Assembly: GCA_018660825.1 (NCBI GenBank)
Contig: JABJJO010000077.1
Location: forward strand, 1-64,000
Origin: Planctomycetaceae bacterium
GTDB lineage: Bacteria; Planctomycetota; Planctomycetia; Pirellulales; Pirellulaceae
DNA: 64,000 nucleotides
Direction: 5' to 3'
The first letter of the stretch is position 1; each line of letters begins with the position of its first letter. Of this stretch, positions 3,398 through 41,934 are shown piece by piece. Under the pieces are notes generated by a model. It was not told where the DNA came from and made no database searches. It worked only from the letters and a program-made list of their open reading frames with translations. The position numbers and the translations under genes were made by a program.

Positions 3398-4453
3398 ATG
3401 TCACCCGAATCAGAACAATCGTTAGGAACCGAAAAAACCGTTGTCGGCCAGACGCAAGCTGACAAACTGGTTGAGTCCAAATCTGAAGATAAATATCACC
3501 TTAAATTGTATCTTCGCCTCGCTGTTGTAGCGGTCGTCATTTTCTGGATTGAGAAGACTTTTCGGGAAGCGGGGGATGAATTTTCCGCAGCACAGTTTTC
3601 AGTGTTGAACCTCGATCTACTGTGCGTAATACTGGCCGCGCTATGTTATATGATTGGCTTATTGTGTTTCGCGTTGTTTTGGCATCTCACGCTGCTCGCT
3701 TTGGGGCAACGGCCAACGCTAGTGGAATCACTTCGCTCGTATATTGTTAGTCAACTAGGAAAATACGTACCAGGTAAAGCATTGGTTGTGATTATCCGTA
3801 GTGAGCGAGTTAGTTCATCGCGCGTCTCGAGTAGTGTGGCCGTTGTTGGGGTATTCATTGAGACCCTTGGAATGATGGCTGTCGGAGGAATCGTGGCAAG
3901 CTTGTTACTTTTTATTGGGTACGGGCGGACGCACCAAAGTGGTTGGTTGACGTTATTAGCCGTTGGCCTCGCGGTGGGGGCTGGTGTGGGGGCGAGTCCG
4001 CCAGTGTTTCGTTTCGTATTACGATATCTGAGTAAGCGGCGAGGTTTGTCGATGTTGGCCGAGGCTATTGACGGTTTGAGCTGGCGGTTCCTAGCTAAAG
4101 GTTGGCTACTGGCGGCCGTGGGGTGGCTCTTCTTTGGAACAAGTATGATTTTCGTATTGCAGTCTTTCCCGCCACCTGAGGATGGTCCGATATTAGCCGT
4201 TTGGGACTATCCTCAGGTTGTTGCGGCTGTATCGTTGTCTTTAGTCGCGGGTTTCATATCGCTAATGCCAGGTGGAGCTGGCGTACGGGAAATGGTTATT
4301 TCTACGCTACTCACTCCATTGACTGGTCCAGTTTTCGCGGTAATTTCCGCTATTAGTTTGCGAGGGCTGTGGTTATTATGTGAATTGGGTGCGGCAGCTG
4401 CCTTTTTAATCCACAATGGTCAAACGAATCGCTCTGCCCAAAACAAACCATAA
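3398..4453 (+). CDS. Lysylphosphatidylglycerol synthase TM-region/UPF0104 family, flippase-like protein
   Basis: Integral membrane protein of 351 residues with a charged N-terminal tail of about 40 residues, then seven or eight hydrophobic segments. It carries UPF0104 signatures: SQLGKYVPGKALVV after the third segment, a V/I-E-T-L motif (VVGVFIETLGMMAVGG), and near the C-terminus SLVAGFISLMPGGAGVREM. These match the membrane domain of MprF and the AglD family, several of which are linked to lipid or polyprenyl-phosphate-sugar translocation. It lies 17 bases upstream of a GT2 polyprenyl-phosphate glycosyltransferase and in the same operon as a GT-C-like protein, which supports a role in moving a lipid-linked sugar across the membrane. 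That role is inferred from context. Confidence 0.85.
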   Translation: MSPESEQSLGTEKTVVGQTQADKLVESKSEDKYHLKLYLRLAVVAVVIFWIEKTFREAGDEFSAAQFSVLNLDLLCVILAALCYMIGLLCFALFWHLTLLALGQRPTLVESLRSYIVSQLGKYVPGKALVVIIRSERVSSSRVSSSVAVVGVFIETLGMMAVGGIVASLLLFIGYGRTHQSGWLTLLAVGLAVGAGVGASPPVFRFVLRYLSKRRGLSMLAEAIDGLSWRFLAKGWLLAAVGWLFFGTSMIFVLQSFPPPEDGPILAVWDYPQVVAAVSLSLVAGFISLMPGGAGVREMVISTLLTPLTGPVFAVISAISLRGLWLLCELGAAAAFLIHNGQTNRSAQNKP

Positions 4454-4470
4454 ATTCGAGGATCGAGAAT

Positions 4471-5442
4471 ATGATATCGTTTGTAATTCCAGTTTTAAAT
4501 GAGGCTGAGAGTCTGCATCGTCTAATTAGTGAAATCCAGGCCGTTGCGAATGAGCAATTATTTGATTATGAGATAATATTTGTGGACGATGGCTCGACCG
4601 ATAACTCATGGGATGTCATCGTTGCCGCACATGAACAAGATCCGCGGGTTGTCGGTGTCCGATTTAGGCGGAACTTTGGAAAAGCCGCTGCCTTAAATGC
4701 TGGATTTCAACTGGCGGAGGGCGAAATCGTGTTTACTCTGGATGCGGATCTACAAGATGATCCTAATGAGATTCCCAGGTTTTTAGAGGTTTTGAAAACC
4801 CAAGATCTTGACGTCGTGAGTGGTTGGAAAAAGAAACGCCATGACCCCTGGCACAAGGTTGGACCCTCACGAGCATTCAACTTAATGGTCAGTAAACTGA
4901 CTGGTGTACGACTGCACGACCACAATTGCGGTTTCAAATGTTATCGCAGCGAGGTCCTCGAGGAAATACAACTCTACGGTGAACTGCATCGCTTCGTCCC
5001 GGTGTTGGCAGCGTCGCGAGGTTGGCGAGTTGGAGAGGTCGTCGTTAATCATCGCGAGCGGGAGTTTGGGAAATCAAAATATGGCGTGAAACGCATCATA
5101 AAAGGTTTCCTTGATTTACTTACTGTCCACTTGGTTACGGGCTACGGCAATCGCCCGCAGCATTTGTTGGGGTCCCTTGGTATGAGCTGTTTTGCAATCT
5201 CCGGGCTGACCATGACAATTTTGACTTTTTGGTGGGTTGTTCATCGAGTGACGCAGGTTTCAGATCCTATCCATCTACATGAGCGAGCTTTGTTTTACTT
5301 TTCCATCGCCGGTGGCATCATTGGTATTCAATTATTAACTACGGGGTTCTTGGCGGAGCTCATCACCAAAAAAACTGTACGGGACGAGCAAATATATTCG
5401 GTGAAGGACTCCGTGGGTAAACAGGATAAAGGCGATGCCTGA
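4471..5442 (+). CDS. Glycosyltransferase family 2, polyprenyl-phosphate sugar transferase (DPM1/GtrB-like)
   Basis: 323 residues. The N-terminal GT-A domain shows the family pattern in order: SFVIPVLNEAESL, the nucleotide-binding FVDDGSTDNSW, NFGKAAALNAGF, and the metal-binding DADLQDDP. VVNHREREFGKSKYG is typical of dolichyl/undecaprenyl-phosphate hexosyltransferases. Two C-terminal transmembrane segments anchor the enzyme (around residues 230-255 and 275-300). The expected reaction is transfer of a hexose from a nucleotide sugar to polyprenyl phosphate on the cytoplasmic face. Its stop codon overlaps the start of the next gene by 8 bases, so the two are likely translationally coupled. Which sugar is used cannot be told. 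Confidence 0.9.
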   Translation: MISFVIPVLNEAESLHRLISEIQAVANEQLFDYEIIFVDDGSTDNSWDVIVAAHEQDPRVVGVRFRRNFGKAAALNAGFQLAEGEIVFTLDADLQDDPNEIPRFLEVLKTQDLDVVSGWKKKRHDPWHKVGPSRAFNLMVSKLTGVRLHDHNCGFKCYRSEVLEEIQLYGELHRFVPVLAASRGWRVGEVVVNHREREFGKSKYGVKRIIKGFLDLLTVHLVTGYGNRPQHLLGSLGMSCFAISGLTMTILTFWWVVHRVTQVSDPIHLHERALFYFSIAGGIIGIQLLTTGFLAELITKKTVRDEQIYSVKDSVGKQDKGDA

Positions 5443-7171
5443 CCGACGACAAATTATCAGTGAGGAGTCGGACAAGTCATCTAGGGTTAGATCAAATTCT
5501 AGCAGAAACGCGTCCGATATCAGTCGCAATGATGATCTTGGACTGGATGGTTTGTCAAGACGAGAGTTGGCATGGCTGATCCTGCCGGCTCTATTGTTGA
5601 TCACCATTCGCCTCATGTTATGGCATCAGTATTTTGATAAGGATACTGATGGATCGCGCAAGTTTATCGAGGGACGAGAGGCCGTCACGGGTATGCACTG
5701 CGCGAATGATCGCAGTCGATGGGCAGCTGTAGTTTCATTAGTGCATCAGGGATCATGGTCTATTGATGATGTTGAACGATTGCGCGGTTCGAGCGGCAAT
5801 TGGGGCACGATTGACAAGGTCTACCATATCGACAGTTCGGGTGTTGAGCATTTCTATTCCAGTAAACCACCACTATACATCCTATTCGTTGCTTCTCAAT
5901 ATTGGGTCCTTAACCGCACGTTCGGAGTCGACATTCTCCAAAATCCGTTATGGGGGATTAAAGGACTCGTATTTCTTAACCAAGTTTTATTGTTTGGAAT
6001 ATTCCTGTGGCTCTACTTGGTGATTTGTCAGCGTTTCGTAAGGCAACGATCGGTGTTGATTTGTTTGGGGCTAACAGCTGGATTTGGCACTTTCCTTTCC
6101 ACCTTTGCTGTTTCATTAAACAACCATCTACCCGCAGCGGTGTGTACCTTAGCCGTGATTTGTTTGTTGATCCGTATAGAGGACCAGCCCAAACGTATAG
6201 AGGACCACACCAACACTGGATGGCTCAATTACTTTTGTGTTGGTGTTATGACCGCGTTATGTGTGACGTTCGAACTACCCGCGTTATCATTCCTGGGATT
6301 AGTAGGTATTTGGTTGCTGATTCGGTCACCAATACAGACGCTGACGTTTGGCGCAGCTGGAATTGGCGTGGTCGCATTTGCATTCTTTGGATGCAATTAC
6401 TGGGCCCACGGGTCCCTGCGCCCACCCTATGCTCATCGCAGCGACGGCGAGGTACTTGCATCATTGGAAGAAGCTGACAAAGCGTTATTGGTAGCAGGTG
6501 TTGTTCCCGAAAGTCTCGCGCTACGTTGGAGGCGCACCGACAACGATGGAGATTTGCACAGGATGAGTAACATCGTTATTGAGCAGCACCCCACGGCGGG
6601 ACGGTGGCGTATCTTTGATATTCAGAACAGACAACGCTATGCTTTACAACAGGTTGGAAGCAAATACGAAATTCGGGACTGGGATAATTGGTACGATTAT
6701 GAAGTAAATGGAAGGGCGAGTTATTGGCTGCCCGGGGCTGCGAGTGGTGTGGATTTGGGCGAGCCCTCAAGATTGCTGTACTTAGTACACATGACTATTG
6801 GCCACCATGGTATATTTTCGCTAACGCCGATCTGGCTATTTTCCCTGATAGGTATTGCCGTTGCTTGGCGCGATCCAGAACCAATTTGGCGCCGCTTTGC
6901 TTATGTGTTATTTACACTTATTGTTGTGTTAATTGGATTTTATACTCTACGTCCCTTGGCCGATCGAAACTATGGCGGCGTTGCTAGTGGGTTTCGATGG
7001 TTTTTCTGGTTAACGCCACTATTTTTATTGATGTTGATTCCGGCTTGGAATGTCGTGCGTAAATCGATGCTTCTAATGGTTCTATGGGGTATTTGCCTGG
7101 CCTTATCGATATATTCGGGATTGCACGGATTTCTAAACCCCTGGCAACACCCATGGTATTTTACACCCTGA
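5435..7171 (+). CDS. Polytopic membrane protein, probable GT-C type glycosyltransferase
   Basis: 578 residues. A polar N-terminal tail of about 40 residues is followed by a transmembrane segment (LAWLILPALLLITIRLMLW), a loop with acidic and basic residues (DGSRKFIEGREAVTGMHCANDR), and about ten further hydrophobic segments. A large extracytoplasmic insertion of about 100 residues in the middle includes RRTDNDGDLHRM and YDYEVNGRASYW. The overall plan resembles polyprenyl-phosphate-sugar-dependent GT-C enzymes of the PMT/ArnT type, but I see no diagnostic motif beyond topology and neighbours. It starts inside the end of the GT2 gene. A 14-bp sequence is repeated with a period of 21 bases at 6173-6207, encoding a duplicated RIED unit in a cytoplasmic loop. 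Confidence 0.6.
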   Translation: MPDRRQIISEESDKSSRVRSNSSRNASDISRNDDLGLDGLSRRELAWLILPALLLITIRLMLWHQYFDKDTDGSRKFIEGREAVTGMHCANDRSRWAAVVSLVHQGSWSIDDVERLRGSSGNWGTIDKVYHIDSSGVEHFYSSKPPLYILFVASQYWVLNRTFGVDILQNPLWGIKGLVFLNQVLLFGIFLWLYLVICQRFVRQRSVLICLGLTAGFGTFLSTFAVSLNNHLPAAVCTLAVICLLIRIEDQPKRIEDHTNTGWLNYFCVGVMTALCVTFELPALSFLGLVGIWLLIRSPIQTLTFGAAGIGVVAFAFFGCNYWAHGSLRPPYAHRSDGEVLASLEEADKALLVAGVVPESLALRWRRTDNDGDLHRMSNIVIEQHPTAGRWRIFDIQNRQRYALQQVGSKYEIRDWDNWYDYEVNGRASYWLPGAASGVDLGEPSRLLYLVHMTIGHHGIFSLTPIWLFSLIGIAVAWRDPEPIWRRFAYVLFTLIVVLIGFYTLRPLADRNYGGVASGFRWFFWLTPLFLLMLIPAWNVVRKSMLLMVLWGICLALSIYSGLHGFLNPWQHPWYFTP

Positions 7172-39012: not shown

Positions 39013-39159
39013 ATGCCGTCCCCAAACTCCTCTTTGAAATCGCGGTTTTATGTAATTTTGATTGGCATCGCGTTAGGATTGCTCGCTTTGGCAATCAAAG
39101 AGATGGTTTCGACGCCAAGCGAAAAGCCGGTGTCATCCATCTCGCACTTACAACGCTAG
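39013..39159 (+). CDS. 48-residue membrane miniprotein
   Basis: A short frame from ATG 39013 to TAG 39157-39159 with AAAGGA 10 bases upstream. It follows the cytochrome gene by 18 bases. The sequence has a polar/basic N-terminus, one clear transmembrane helix (FYVILIGIALGLLALAIKEM) and a polar tail, which is the composition of a real single-pass miniprotein. Its stop overlaps the convergent TerC gene: CTAG at 39156-39159 contains both stop codons. It may be a small subunit of the propeller/cytochrome complex, but nothing in the sequence proves that. Confidence 0.55.
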   Translation: MPSPNSSLKSRFYVILIGIALGLLALAIKEMVSTPSEKPVSSISHLQR

Positions 39160-39977
39160 TCCACGTTTTCCGCTGCACGAGCCAGCTTGGCCTTTTTTTT
39201 GTTGTGTAACCGCAGGTTGAGAAATTCCACACCAAGGGAAAATGCCATTGCAAAATAGATATAACCCTTGTTGAAATGTGTGCCCATCGATTCTGCTATG
39301 AGCATAACACCGATTAGTATTAAAAAACTCAAGGCCAGCATCTTTAACGTCGGGTGACTCTCGATGAAATCGGCAATTCGTTTGGCAAAGATGAGCATTA
39401 CGATCATAGCAATAACCATGGCGGCGATCATCACCCACAGTTGTCGCGCCATTCCAACAGCCGTGATAACTGAGTCTAGCGAAAAGACAATGTCGAGGAT
39501 CGCAACTTGGAATAAAACGGAACCAAACGTAACTTCTTTATCACCTTCCTGTTTTATCGCTGAATCGTTGAATTTTTCATGAATCTCATGAACACTCTTG
39601 CCAATCAGGAATGCTCCGCCAAGCAACATGATAAGATCTTTCGCGGTGATGTTGTTAATTTCTGCAAATGCTACCGAGCCAATTTCCAATGCATGCTCGC
39701 CGTTGGAAAGCGCATTAGAAATTCCGATAACGTCGATATGCAGTGAGTCGAGTTTGAAAATTGCGCCATCGAACACGTCTGCGTTGTTGATCCAATACAG
39801 AACGCACAAAAGTGCAACACGAGTAATGAGGGCGATGATAAGGCCGAGGTTTCGACCGATAGGTTGTTTCGCCGCGGGCAGTCGTCCTGTGAGAATGGCG
39901 ATGAAGACGATATTGTCGATGCCAAGGACAATTTCCATGGCGGTAAGCGCGAGCAACGGAATGAGAAATTCAGGCAT
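39156..39977 (-). CDS. TerC family integral membrane protein
   Basis: 273 residues, about seven transmembrane segments. The family's paired motifs are present: MEIVLGIDNIVFIAIL in the first segment and LFQVAILDIVFSLDSVITAVG in the fourth, each with a membrane-embedded Asp; GGAFLIGKSVHEIHE lies between them. TerC proteins are implicated in tellurite resistance and manganese export, the latter established for some members. I looked upstream for a yybP-ykoY-like manganese riboswitch and did not recognise one. It converges on the preceding operon, sharing bases of the stop codon with the miniprotein. Confidence 0.92.
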   Translation of the reverse strand: MPEFLIPLLALTAMEIVLGIDNIVFIAILTGRLPAAKQPIGRNLGLIIALITRVALLCVLYWINNADVFDGAIFKLDSLHIDVIGISNALSNGEHALEIGSVAFAEINNITAKDLIMLLGGAFLIGKSVHEIHEKFNDSAIKQEGDKEVTFGSVLFQVAILDIVFSLDSVITAVGMARQLWVMIAAMVIAMIVMLIFAKRIADFIESHPTLKMLALSFLILIGVMLIAESMGTHFNKGYIYFAMAFSLGVEFLNLRLHNKKKAKLARAAENVD

Positions 39978-40138: not shown

Positions 40139-41188
40139 ATGGGTTTATGGGGCAGAAAAAAGCGTTTAGTCGATTATGCTAGTTGCGCAGGCTGAGCGGG
40201 GAAGTTGCCCCAAGCAGCTATTGCACAGGTTGTGCAGTCTCTTCCTAAACCCGACGATGTGAATTTGCTGATCGGAGCAGAAGGGTTTAGTGACGCTTCG
40301 GTATATCAACTCGAAAACGGTTTGTTGATGGTGCAGTCTTTAGACTTTTTCCCACCATTAGTTAACGACCCTTTCGTGTACGGACAAATTGCGGCGGCTA
40401 ACTCCCTTAGTGACATATTCGCGATGGGCGCAAGTCCGGTCACGGCCTTGAATATCGTCGCCTTTCCGGATGACAAATTGGATTTAAGCGTGCTCACAGA
40501 AATTTTGCGCGGTGGTGACGACAAGGTACGGGAAGCCGGAGCCGTTGTTGCTGGCGGTCATACTGTGCGCGACGTCGAGATCAAGTATGGTCTTTCGGTT
40601 ACCGGCATTTGTCGAGAGGAAGATTTGCACGCAAATTGCGGTGCCGAAGCTGGCGACGTTCTGGTCCTGACAAAGCCAATTGGTACCGGGTTCGTGACGA
40701 CCGCCATGAAAGCGGGTAAAGCAAGTCAGCTTGCAGAGGATACTGCGATTGACGCCATGCGATCGTTGAATTTAGTCGCGTCAAAGGCAGCTAGTGCCGT
40801 TGGAGCTAGTGCGGTGACGGATATAACCGGCTTTGGCTTAGCGGGACATGCGCGTGAAGTCGCGATCGCCAGTGGTGTAACGTTGAATATAAATTTATCG
40901 GATGTCCCGCAGCTGCCCCAGGCACTCGATTACTATCGCAAAGGCCTGATAACCCGCGCCTCGGCCTCAAATCGCGACGCAAATGAGGGAGACGTCGAAA
41001 CACAGTCAACGGATGCCGACCTCGTCGAACTTCTTTATGACCCACAAACATCCGGCGGACTGTTAATTTCAGTGTCGCAGGATCGAGTCGATTCCATGCT
41101 AACGCAAATGTGCGATAGCGGGTGTGACGATGCGGTAGTCGTGGGACACGTCACAACCAAGGGGAAGGCGTCGATCGTGGCGTCTTAA
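40139..41188 (+). CDS. selD: Selenide, water dikinase, a selenoprotein read through an in-frame TGA
   Basis: 349 residues if the TGA at 40193-40195 is read as selenocysteine; the frame is open from ATG 40139, the only ATG after the upstream TAG. The N-terminus then reads DYASCAGUAGKLP, with Sec19 and Lys22 aligning to catalytic Cys17 and Lys20 of the 347-residue E. coli SelD. Other motifs: SLDFFPPLVNDPFVYGQIAA, NSLSDIFAMGA, VVAGGHTVRD and TDITGFGLAGHA. It makes selenophosphate from selenide and ATP for Sec-tRNA and other selenium uses. Starting at the first sense-only codon (TTG 40205) would remove the catalytic motif. It converges with queC, leaving 14 bases between the stops. Confidence 0.93.
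40220..40238 (+). promoter_or_regulatory. Bacterial SECIS-like hairpin downstream of the selD UGA
   Basis: A 7-bp stem (AUUGCAC with GUGCAGU, one G-U pair) closing a five-base loop AGGUU at 40227-40231. The loop starts 34 bases after the first base of the UGA and has G as its second base. Loop sequence and spacing resemble known bacterial SECIS elements bound by SelB; the E. coli fdhF loop also begins AGGU. Confidence 0.65.
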
Positions 41189-41202: not shown

Positions 41203-41934
41203 CTATTCGGCGTATTGGATAGGATCGCTTAAGTCATTTACCGCGAACCCTTGTAGTCGGAGCAAACAGGCGTCACATCGACCACAGGCCAAATCGTTGC
41301 TGACGGGGTCATAACAGGAGGTTGTCATTTGATATTGAACGTTCAATCGCAACCCCTCTTTAATGATCTCCGCCTTGGTCATGTTGATAAGTGGTGCGTG
41401 AATTGTGGTTTTTACGTCGCTTAAATCAGCCGCGCTAACCGTGTTAATTTTCGTCGCTAAATTTGCTAATTCTCCGAACGCGGCGATAAATTCGGGACGG
41501 CAATCTGGGTAACCGCTATAGTCGAGCGCATTAACACCGATGAATATATCGGTCGCTTGGCGTACTTCAGCGAGCGCTAATGCGTACGATAAAAAGATTG
41601 TATTTCGGGCGGGAACGTACGTTATCGGAATATCATAACCGATCTCGGAAACGTGATCGTGTTTGGGGACTTTGAGATCGGTGGTCAGCGCGGATTGGCC
41701 GAATTGGGACAAGTCAATGTTAACAATACAATGATCTTTAATTCCGGCTTGCGTGGCAATCGCCTGCGCATGTTCAATTTCGTGACGATGGTTTTGGCCA
41801 TAAAGAAAACTCAGCGCTACAATGTCGAAGCCTTGATCCAACGCTATTGCGAGCACCGTCGTGGAATCAAGGCCACCGCTCAGAAGAACAACTGCTGTTG
41901 GTGAGGTGGGAGTCAGGTTGGTGTCCAAAGTCAT
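41203..41934 (-). CDS. queC: 7-cyano-7-deazaguanine synthase
   Basis: 243 residues, usual length. It converts 7-carboxy-7-deazaguanine to preQ0 with ATP and ammonia, in queuosine biosynthesis. The ATP-pyrophosphatase P-loop VVLLSGGLDSTTVLAIA is at the N-terminus. YVPARNTIFLSYALALAE and YPDCRPEF are family blocks. The zinc site near the C-terminus is C-x8-C-x2-C-x2-C (CYDPVSNDLACGRCDAC). No other que gene is in the window. It converges with selD. Confidence 0.95.
   Translation of the reverse strand: MTLDTNLTPTSPTAVVLLSGGLDSTTVLAIALDQGFDIVALSFLYGQNHRHEIEHAQAIATQAGIKDHCIVNIDLSQFGQSALTTDLKVPKHDHVSEIGYDIPITYVPARNTIFLSYALALAEVRQATDIFIGVNALDYSGYPDCRPEFIAAFGELANLATKINTVSAADLSDVKTTIHAPLINMTKAEIIKEGLRLNVQYQMTTSCYDPVSNDLACGRCDACLLRLQGFAVNDLSDPIQYAE

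Follow-up and report, generated by a model that had tools for sequence, protein, structure and literature searches.

A selenide, water dikinase gene with a TGA codon at its catalytic position, and further likely selenoprotein genes, in a planctomycete genome

Results

The selD gene and its reading frame

The window analysed here is a stretch of 64,000 nucleotides (nt) from a Planctomycetaceae bacterium (assembly GCA_018660825.1, contig JABJJO010000077.1, positions 1 to 64,000). It carries a gene for selenide, water dikinase (SelD) whose reading frame is interrupted by a TGA codon, which we read as selenocysteine (Sec). The features of the gene are as follows.

40139..41188, + strand: selD, selenide, water dikinase with predicted Sec at residue 19; 349 residues and the stop codon TAA at 41186-41188
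40193..40195, + strand: in-frame TGA, codon 19, read as selenocysteine (U19); aligns with Cys17 of 3u0o
40205..41188, + strand: shortened open reading frame (ORF) with a TTG start and without the active site; 327 aa in the mechanical ORF list

Read directly from the ATG at 40139, the frame begins MGLWGRKKRLVDYASCAGUAGKLPQ and holds one TGA in its whole length; a SelD profile search of the whole genome likewise gave a match with 1 TGA inside. With the SelD model TIGR00476 the product of 349 residues reaches 355.2 bits (cut-off 125), and a phmmer alignment to 3u0o (chain name selenide, water dikinase), which we take to be E. coli SelD, places residue 19 on Cys17 and residue 22 on Lys20. The start at 40139 is backed by clade relatives with a similar MxxFGRKKRL-type N-terminus. 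Among the matches found, the nearest named relatives of the protein are three Planctomycetota metagenome-assembled genomes, at 49-53% identity. An earlier sequence-only reading of this DNA had proposed the same frame, with the TGA at codon 19 of a 349-residue SelD and with U19 and K22 in the places of the family's Cys17 and Lys20, and both proposals hold. It had also expected a standard gene caller to begin at 40205 and so drop the active site, and the ORF list does start at that TTG. Very probably, then, the window gene encodes a full SelD with a Sec codon at the catalytic position, Sec insertion being predicted from the sequence.

On either side of selD lie genes with no evident selenium link: queC at 41203-41934 on the - strand (200.2 bits, over cut-off) and, at 39156-39977 on the - strand, a gene whose score for the YkoY family of membrane proteins stays under the cut-off.

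The Sec machinery of the genome

The genome (4.94 Mb in 221 contigs, 96.6% complete) holds a complete selABCD set. On contig C22, selB is followed directly by selA (3488-5518 and 5608-6996 of the extracted locus L051). The SelA profile scores 535.5 bits, and the SelB match comes in two pieces, one of 335 bits and a C-terminal one, which together make 371 bits. A tRNA-Sec with UCA in its anticodon loop lies on the same contig at 29322-29417 (63.9 bits with the Rfam model, gathering score 47); ARAGORN gave no Sec tRNA there. That the genome must carry selA, selB and a Sec tRNA had been predicted from the window, with the absence of selB and tRNA-Sec named as what would speak against the selenoprotein; all three were found on C22.

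The TGA codon and SelB in related genomes

We surveyed 147 related genomes, counting a SelD match when it exceeded the TIGR00476 cut-off. SelD was present in 75: 39 carry a TGA-bearing SelD, 29 have their sole SelD in a long open frame, and 7 have only a stand-alone SelD without a TGA inside the match (among these 7, the match in G119 begins beyond the site and G047 additionally carries a long-frame SelD). We extracted 61 SelD loci, 53 from the surveyed genomes (the window's own included) and 8 from named records, and located the catalytic site in 60; the remaining one showed no motif and was dropped. The catalytic codon is TGA at 52 of these sites and a Cys codon at 8, and in the clade relatives the codons ahead of the TGA are conserved at the amino-acid level (KKRL..YASCAG). 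One genome, G110, has four SelD loci (L021, L074, L075 and L076), all of them with the TGA; one belongs to the sequence type of the window gene, and the other three share another type.

With a threshold of E<=1e-60, 76 of the 147 genomes have SelB. SelD and SelB co-occur (both in 69, neither in 65), with exceptions in both directions: 6 genomes have SelD only and 7 have SelB only. These exceptions count against the selenoprotein reading of SelD. All six SelD-only genomes (G006, G008, G031, G041, G070 and G143) have a TGA-bearing SelD; four of them are 70-82% complete, and the SelB threshold is strict. In G008 (91% complete) no tRNA-Sec exceeds the gathering score either, and G006, which is 99% complete and does have a tRNA-Sec, has no SelB match at this threshold. 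Of the seven genomes with SelB and no SelD over cut-off, two belong to the window's own genus. In G004 (89% complete), SelB and tRNA-Sec are present and no SelD over cut-off was found.

In 35 of the 147 genomes a long open frame (587-870 codons) contains a TGA-free SelD match. Since it is the sole SelD over cut-off in 29 of them, and all 29 have SelB, this form is probably the working enzyme there, as the co-occurrence suggests. The Cys motif CxGCGxK is visible in 8 of the 10 long-frame loci fetched (L160-L169), and an NCBI model named fusion_not_SelD was seen among the models scanned. According to the available part of PMC4561486, SelD fusions are known, mostly with an NADH dehydrogenase-like domain; they are Cys forms save one, they occur in genomes with other Sec genes, and their SelD domain is C-terminal in a longer protein. 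The long-frame matches are a possible counterpart of the fusions described there; no such fusion was found in the window's genome.

A hairpin downstream of the TGA

Two hairpins follow the TGA, the shorter one right beside it.

40220..40238, + strand: candidate bacterial selenocysteine insertion sequence (SECIS) hairpin ATTGCACAGGTTGTGCAGT, apical loop (A)GGU(U); from folding, pair counts and a synonymous-codon test
40198..40211, + strand: short GGGG/CCCC hairpin, role uncertain; local fold -5.8 kcal/mol, window sequence only

The 40220-40238 hairpin can be drawn as a 7-bp stem with loop AGGUU, as in the sequence-only reading, which had placed it here; its minimum-energy fold has 8 bp and the loop GGU. 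The loop core lies 33 nt after the TGA. The limits given for bacterial SECIS (bSECIS) elements in the available part of PMC13188914 are a stem of 4-16 bp, a loop of 3-9 nt with a G in its first two positions, a spacing of 16-37 nt and an energy <= -7.5 kcal/mol. Checked by hand, the SelD hairpin (8 bp, GGU, 32 nt, -7.5 kcal/mol) falls within the limits of stem, loop, G and spacing and sits exactly on that of energy, so that the SECIS check proposed earlier comes out just on the positive side. An Rfam scan of the selD locus gave three sub-threshold matches and nothing useful.

The 48 nt from the TGA fold at z = -0.74, with 43 of 200 dinucleotide shuffles equally stable. Because this single-sequence fold is not significant alone, the evidence for the hairpin is comparative. 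We aligned 33 clade relatives (alignment A1) and compared the pairing with that of slid structures and of 500 shuffles. In A1 the paired share of the 198 cells is 87.4%, while the slid structures range from 19.7 to 61.1%; the covariation score is 0.230, a value reached in 0 of the 500 shuffles (mean 0.171), and more cells are altered on both sides than in any of them. One column pair, 30-44, clearly covaries (CG 16, UA 10, UG 2, unpaired 5); pair 33-41 reads AU in 22 relatives, GU in 10 and otherwise in 1.

The coding sequence gives a second line of evidence. We compared the fold of codons +8..+15 after the site with that of synonymous reshuffles. Among the 32 clade TGA genes (one clade member, L071, properly grouped in A1, was sorted here with the other TGA genes) the mean z was -1.78, the best of three stretches tried over the hairpin region (-1.78, -1.26 and -0.76), and p<0.05 was reached in 17 of the 32. 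The 8 Cys genes gave a mean z of +0.14, with p<0.05 in none, and five stretches farther down the same 32 genes ranged from -0.38 to +0.27. Furthermore, a hairpin with an RGUY loop and a stem of at least 5 bp follows the site in 37 of the 52 TGA SelD genes (25/32 in the clade, 12/20 in the others) and in 0 of the 8 Cys genes.

Not all of the comparison favours a SECIS. Besides the unremarkable fold of the single sequence, only 2 pairs in A1 are altered on both sides, a number matched by 200 of 500 shuffles, and the 5 further pair types are matched by 494. A structure slid by +2 equals or exceeds it in three of the change counts, pair 29-45, the outermost, is open in 15 of the 33 relatives, and the free consensus fold retains just 4 pairs at -2.39 kcal/mol. 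Outside the clade, the 20 other TGA genes have a mean z of just -0.51 in the synonymous test, and 15 of all 52 TGA genes have no RGUY hairpin with a stem of at least 5 bp. On balance, the synonymous constraint and the one covarying pair in the relatives support 40220-40238 as a putative bacterial SECIS.

Further TGA-bearing genes in the genome

We searched the window's own genome with the PF00578 profile and counted the TGA codons inside the matches. There are 23 matches, 8 of which hold exactly one TGA (6 of these 8 over the family cut-off), and in all 8 the TGA falls at the active-site position of the thioredoxin-fold domain (loci L117-L120, L150, L154 and L156).

contig C57: peroxiredoxin, FTFIUPTEI
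contig C206: TlpA-like protein with HEAT repeats, GDTUPVC
contig C35: two tandem TlpA-like proteins, GDWUPPC
contig C176: SelL-like protein, GUVFC
contigs C29 and C135: two deiodinase-like proteins, CLTUPPF
contig C216: glutathione peroxidase, ASRUGRT

The names TlpA-like and SelL-like are our presumption. In a Pfam scan of seven of the eight proteins (the second tandem copy left out), five exceeded the AhpC-TSA cut-off, the C216 protein exceeded that of GSHPx, and the C135 protein reached none. As T4_deiodinase scores under its cut-off of 27 in both proteins so named (23.6 and 20.6), 'deiodinase-like' denotes a resemblance. Judged by eye, several of the TGA-bearing proteins begin with an apparent signal peptide. 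Other selenoproteins had been thought probable from the window, and these genes bear that out: the genome looks to hold at least eight likely selenoproteins beside SelD. TGA was sought in the PF00578, PF00384 and SelD families, so that nine is a lower bound. A codon-score scan for TGA-interrupted genes missed SelD itself and was not used.

An RGUY-loop hairpin with a stem of at least 5 bp and its core 21-33 nt on follows all nine TGA sites, SelD included, and the stem reaches 6 bp in eight; the nine sites amount to about seven independent ones, as the tandem TlpA-like genes, whose hairpins are identical, and the two deiodinase-like genes are paralogous pairs. As background, such a hairpin follows 2.7% (stem of at least 5 bp) and 1.4% (at least 6 bp) of 35605 codon positions lying within stop-free stretches of 180 codons or more; after 480 Cys codons the rate is 3.1% and 1.7%, and among the TGA codons that end long stop-free stretches it is 1 in 19. 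We also scanned 219 TGA codons flanked by open frames, taken from the window and from four other stretches of its genome. An RGUY hairpin with a stem of at least 6 bp follows 5 of them: SelD itself and four others that, on visual inspection without a family search, did not resemble genes. Applied to sister genomes, the rule gave 25 rows, of which 4 are chance motif matches and 2 repeat the same G007 DNA; among the remaining 19, most of them orthologous to the proteins of the window's genome and so not independent, 16 pass (stem of at least 5 bp) and 3 do not, namely L124, L129 and L131, the last two being FTGGUTAQC proteins. L098 and L099, with 1 TGA each, were outside the motif list and are not among these rows. 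A TlpA-like gene of G004 (L127, contig C4) has two in-frame TGA codons (EYULTURAHWPHERS) with one hairpin within range of both.

Two points count against so uniform a picture. The RGUY rule was formed after the same nine hairpins had been viewed, and just four of the nine hairpins reach -7.5 kcal/mol, namely those of SelD, of the C206 TlpA-like gene and of both tandem TlpA-like genes, in which an alternative fold (-11.1) is slightly better than the RGUY hairpin (-10.5). The peroxiredoxin (-6.3), SelL-like (-6.9), glutathione peroxidase (-6.8) and C135 deiodinase-like hairpins fall short, and for C29 the RGUY hairpin is not among the top two folds listed, which are other hairpins.

Respiration and selenium use in the genus

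A COX1-family (haem-copper oxidase) match near 500 bits is present in 9 of 9 genus genomes, which suggests that the genus respires oxygen. Selenouridine synthase gave no match in the same nine genomes, and the two PF00384 proteins (molybdopterin oxidoreductases) of the window's genome contain no TGA. These two negatives prompted the idea that SelD might be the sole selenoprotein, with a machinery serving only itself; the PF00578 searches ruled it out.

Discussion

A SelD that is itself a selenoprotein is already well known, and in this respect our core finding is ordinary. The gene agrees with the known Sec-containing members of TIGR00476 in family, catalytic position, the Lys three residues on, the TGA and the downstream hairpin, and nothing essential differs. 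Its own planctomycete clade is marked by the N-terminus KKRL..YASCAGUAGKLP and by a hairpin about 32 nt past the TGA whose loop is mostly AGGUN.

How would the system work? SelA would make Sec-tRNA(UCA) from seryl-tRNA and selenophosphate, and SelB would carry it to the ribosome at the TGA at 40193, recognising the 40220-40238 hairpin via its apical GGU. Sec19, with Lys22, would then act on selenide and ATP to yield selenophosphate, from which Sec would be made both for SelD and for eight or more thioredoxin-fold selenoproteins encoded elsewhere in the genome. Sec insertion, the binding of SelB to the hairpin and the catalytic activity are all predicted here from sequence.

Could the TGA be a true stop, with a functional product that starts at TTG 40205 and has no active-site loop? 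The mechanical ORF caller gives exactly this product, which still scores 334.9 bits against TIGR00476. However, the codons ahead of the TGA are conserved as protein and contain the active-site motif, the TGA itself is conserved in relatives, and the Sec machinery is complete in this genome; we consider a true stop very unlikely. An assembly in 221 contigs leaves room for an error, TGA standing for TGC or TGT, as the sequence-only reading had allowed. Yet the same codon is TGA at 52 of 60 sites, from 39 genomes and eight named records, which an error cannot explain, and the RGUY hairpin accompanies TGA and not Cys SelD genes; the chance of an error here is negligible.

Another amino acid might also be inserted at TGA, through genome-wide reassignment or suppressor readthrough, and the nine TGA-interrupted genes of this genome speak for it. 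But every in-domain TGA falls on a redox-active residue, and tRNA-Sec, SelA and SelB are all present. Moreover, in the DNA examined TGA ends 19 stop-free stretches that are 180 or more codons long, and the C206 selenoprotein gene seems to terminate at a second TGA. We hold this explanation to be even less probable than a true stop, and Sec at codon 19 remains our reading of the gene.

Set against the available part of PMC13188914, the nine hairpins of the window's genome share an RGUY loop core, and five of them were not seen to reach the bSECIS energy limit. Planctomycetes have been linked to Sec before. In the part of PMC4807772 available, Planctomycetes P1 and P2 from Porphyra have a full Sec machinery and several selenoprotein genes, P1 with a Sec-FdhA, P2 with a Sec-FmdB and both with selenouridine synthase. 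The window's genome differs from them, its two PF00384 proteins being TGA-free and no selenouridine synthase having been found. The string 'planctomycet' does not occur in two recent reviews of prokaryotic selenoproteins, the available part of PMC1242214 added nothing on Sec use by planctomycetes, and in the collection searched, the literature on selenoproteins or selenocysteine with Planctomycetota or Pirellula gave no account of such a genus.

Less expected is a sizeable thioredoxin-fold selenoproteome in a planctomycete genus that is probably aerobic. Taking the results together, we lean slightly towards a reading in which an aerobic genus keeps a sizeable, mostly thioredoxin-fold selenoproteome, several members of which are probably exported. 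As neither a TGA-bearing formate dehydrogenase nor selenouridine synthase was found, its Sec-containing SelD would be tied to antioxidant proteins and not to the metabolism of formate, and a single SECIS loop (RGUY), read by one SelB, would have arisen by convergence in unrelated genes. Our confidence in this reading is reduced because only four of the nine hairpins reach the energy limit.

In conclusion, selenium use in planctomycetes of this kind is readily overlooked, since gene callers remove the SelD active site and would shorten the other genes with a TGA or break them up. An aerobic selenoproteome of this kind, if true, runs counter to the statement, in the available part of the 2026 review PMC13188914, that selenoproteins are rarely retained by aerobic bacteria. 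The deiodinase-like and tandem TlpA-like proteins are subjects for functional study, and nine or more likely selenoproteins in a lineage that is probably aerobic offer a setting in which to ask why Sec persists under oxygen.
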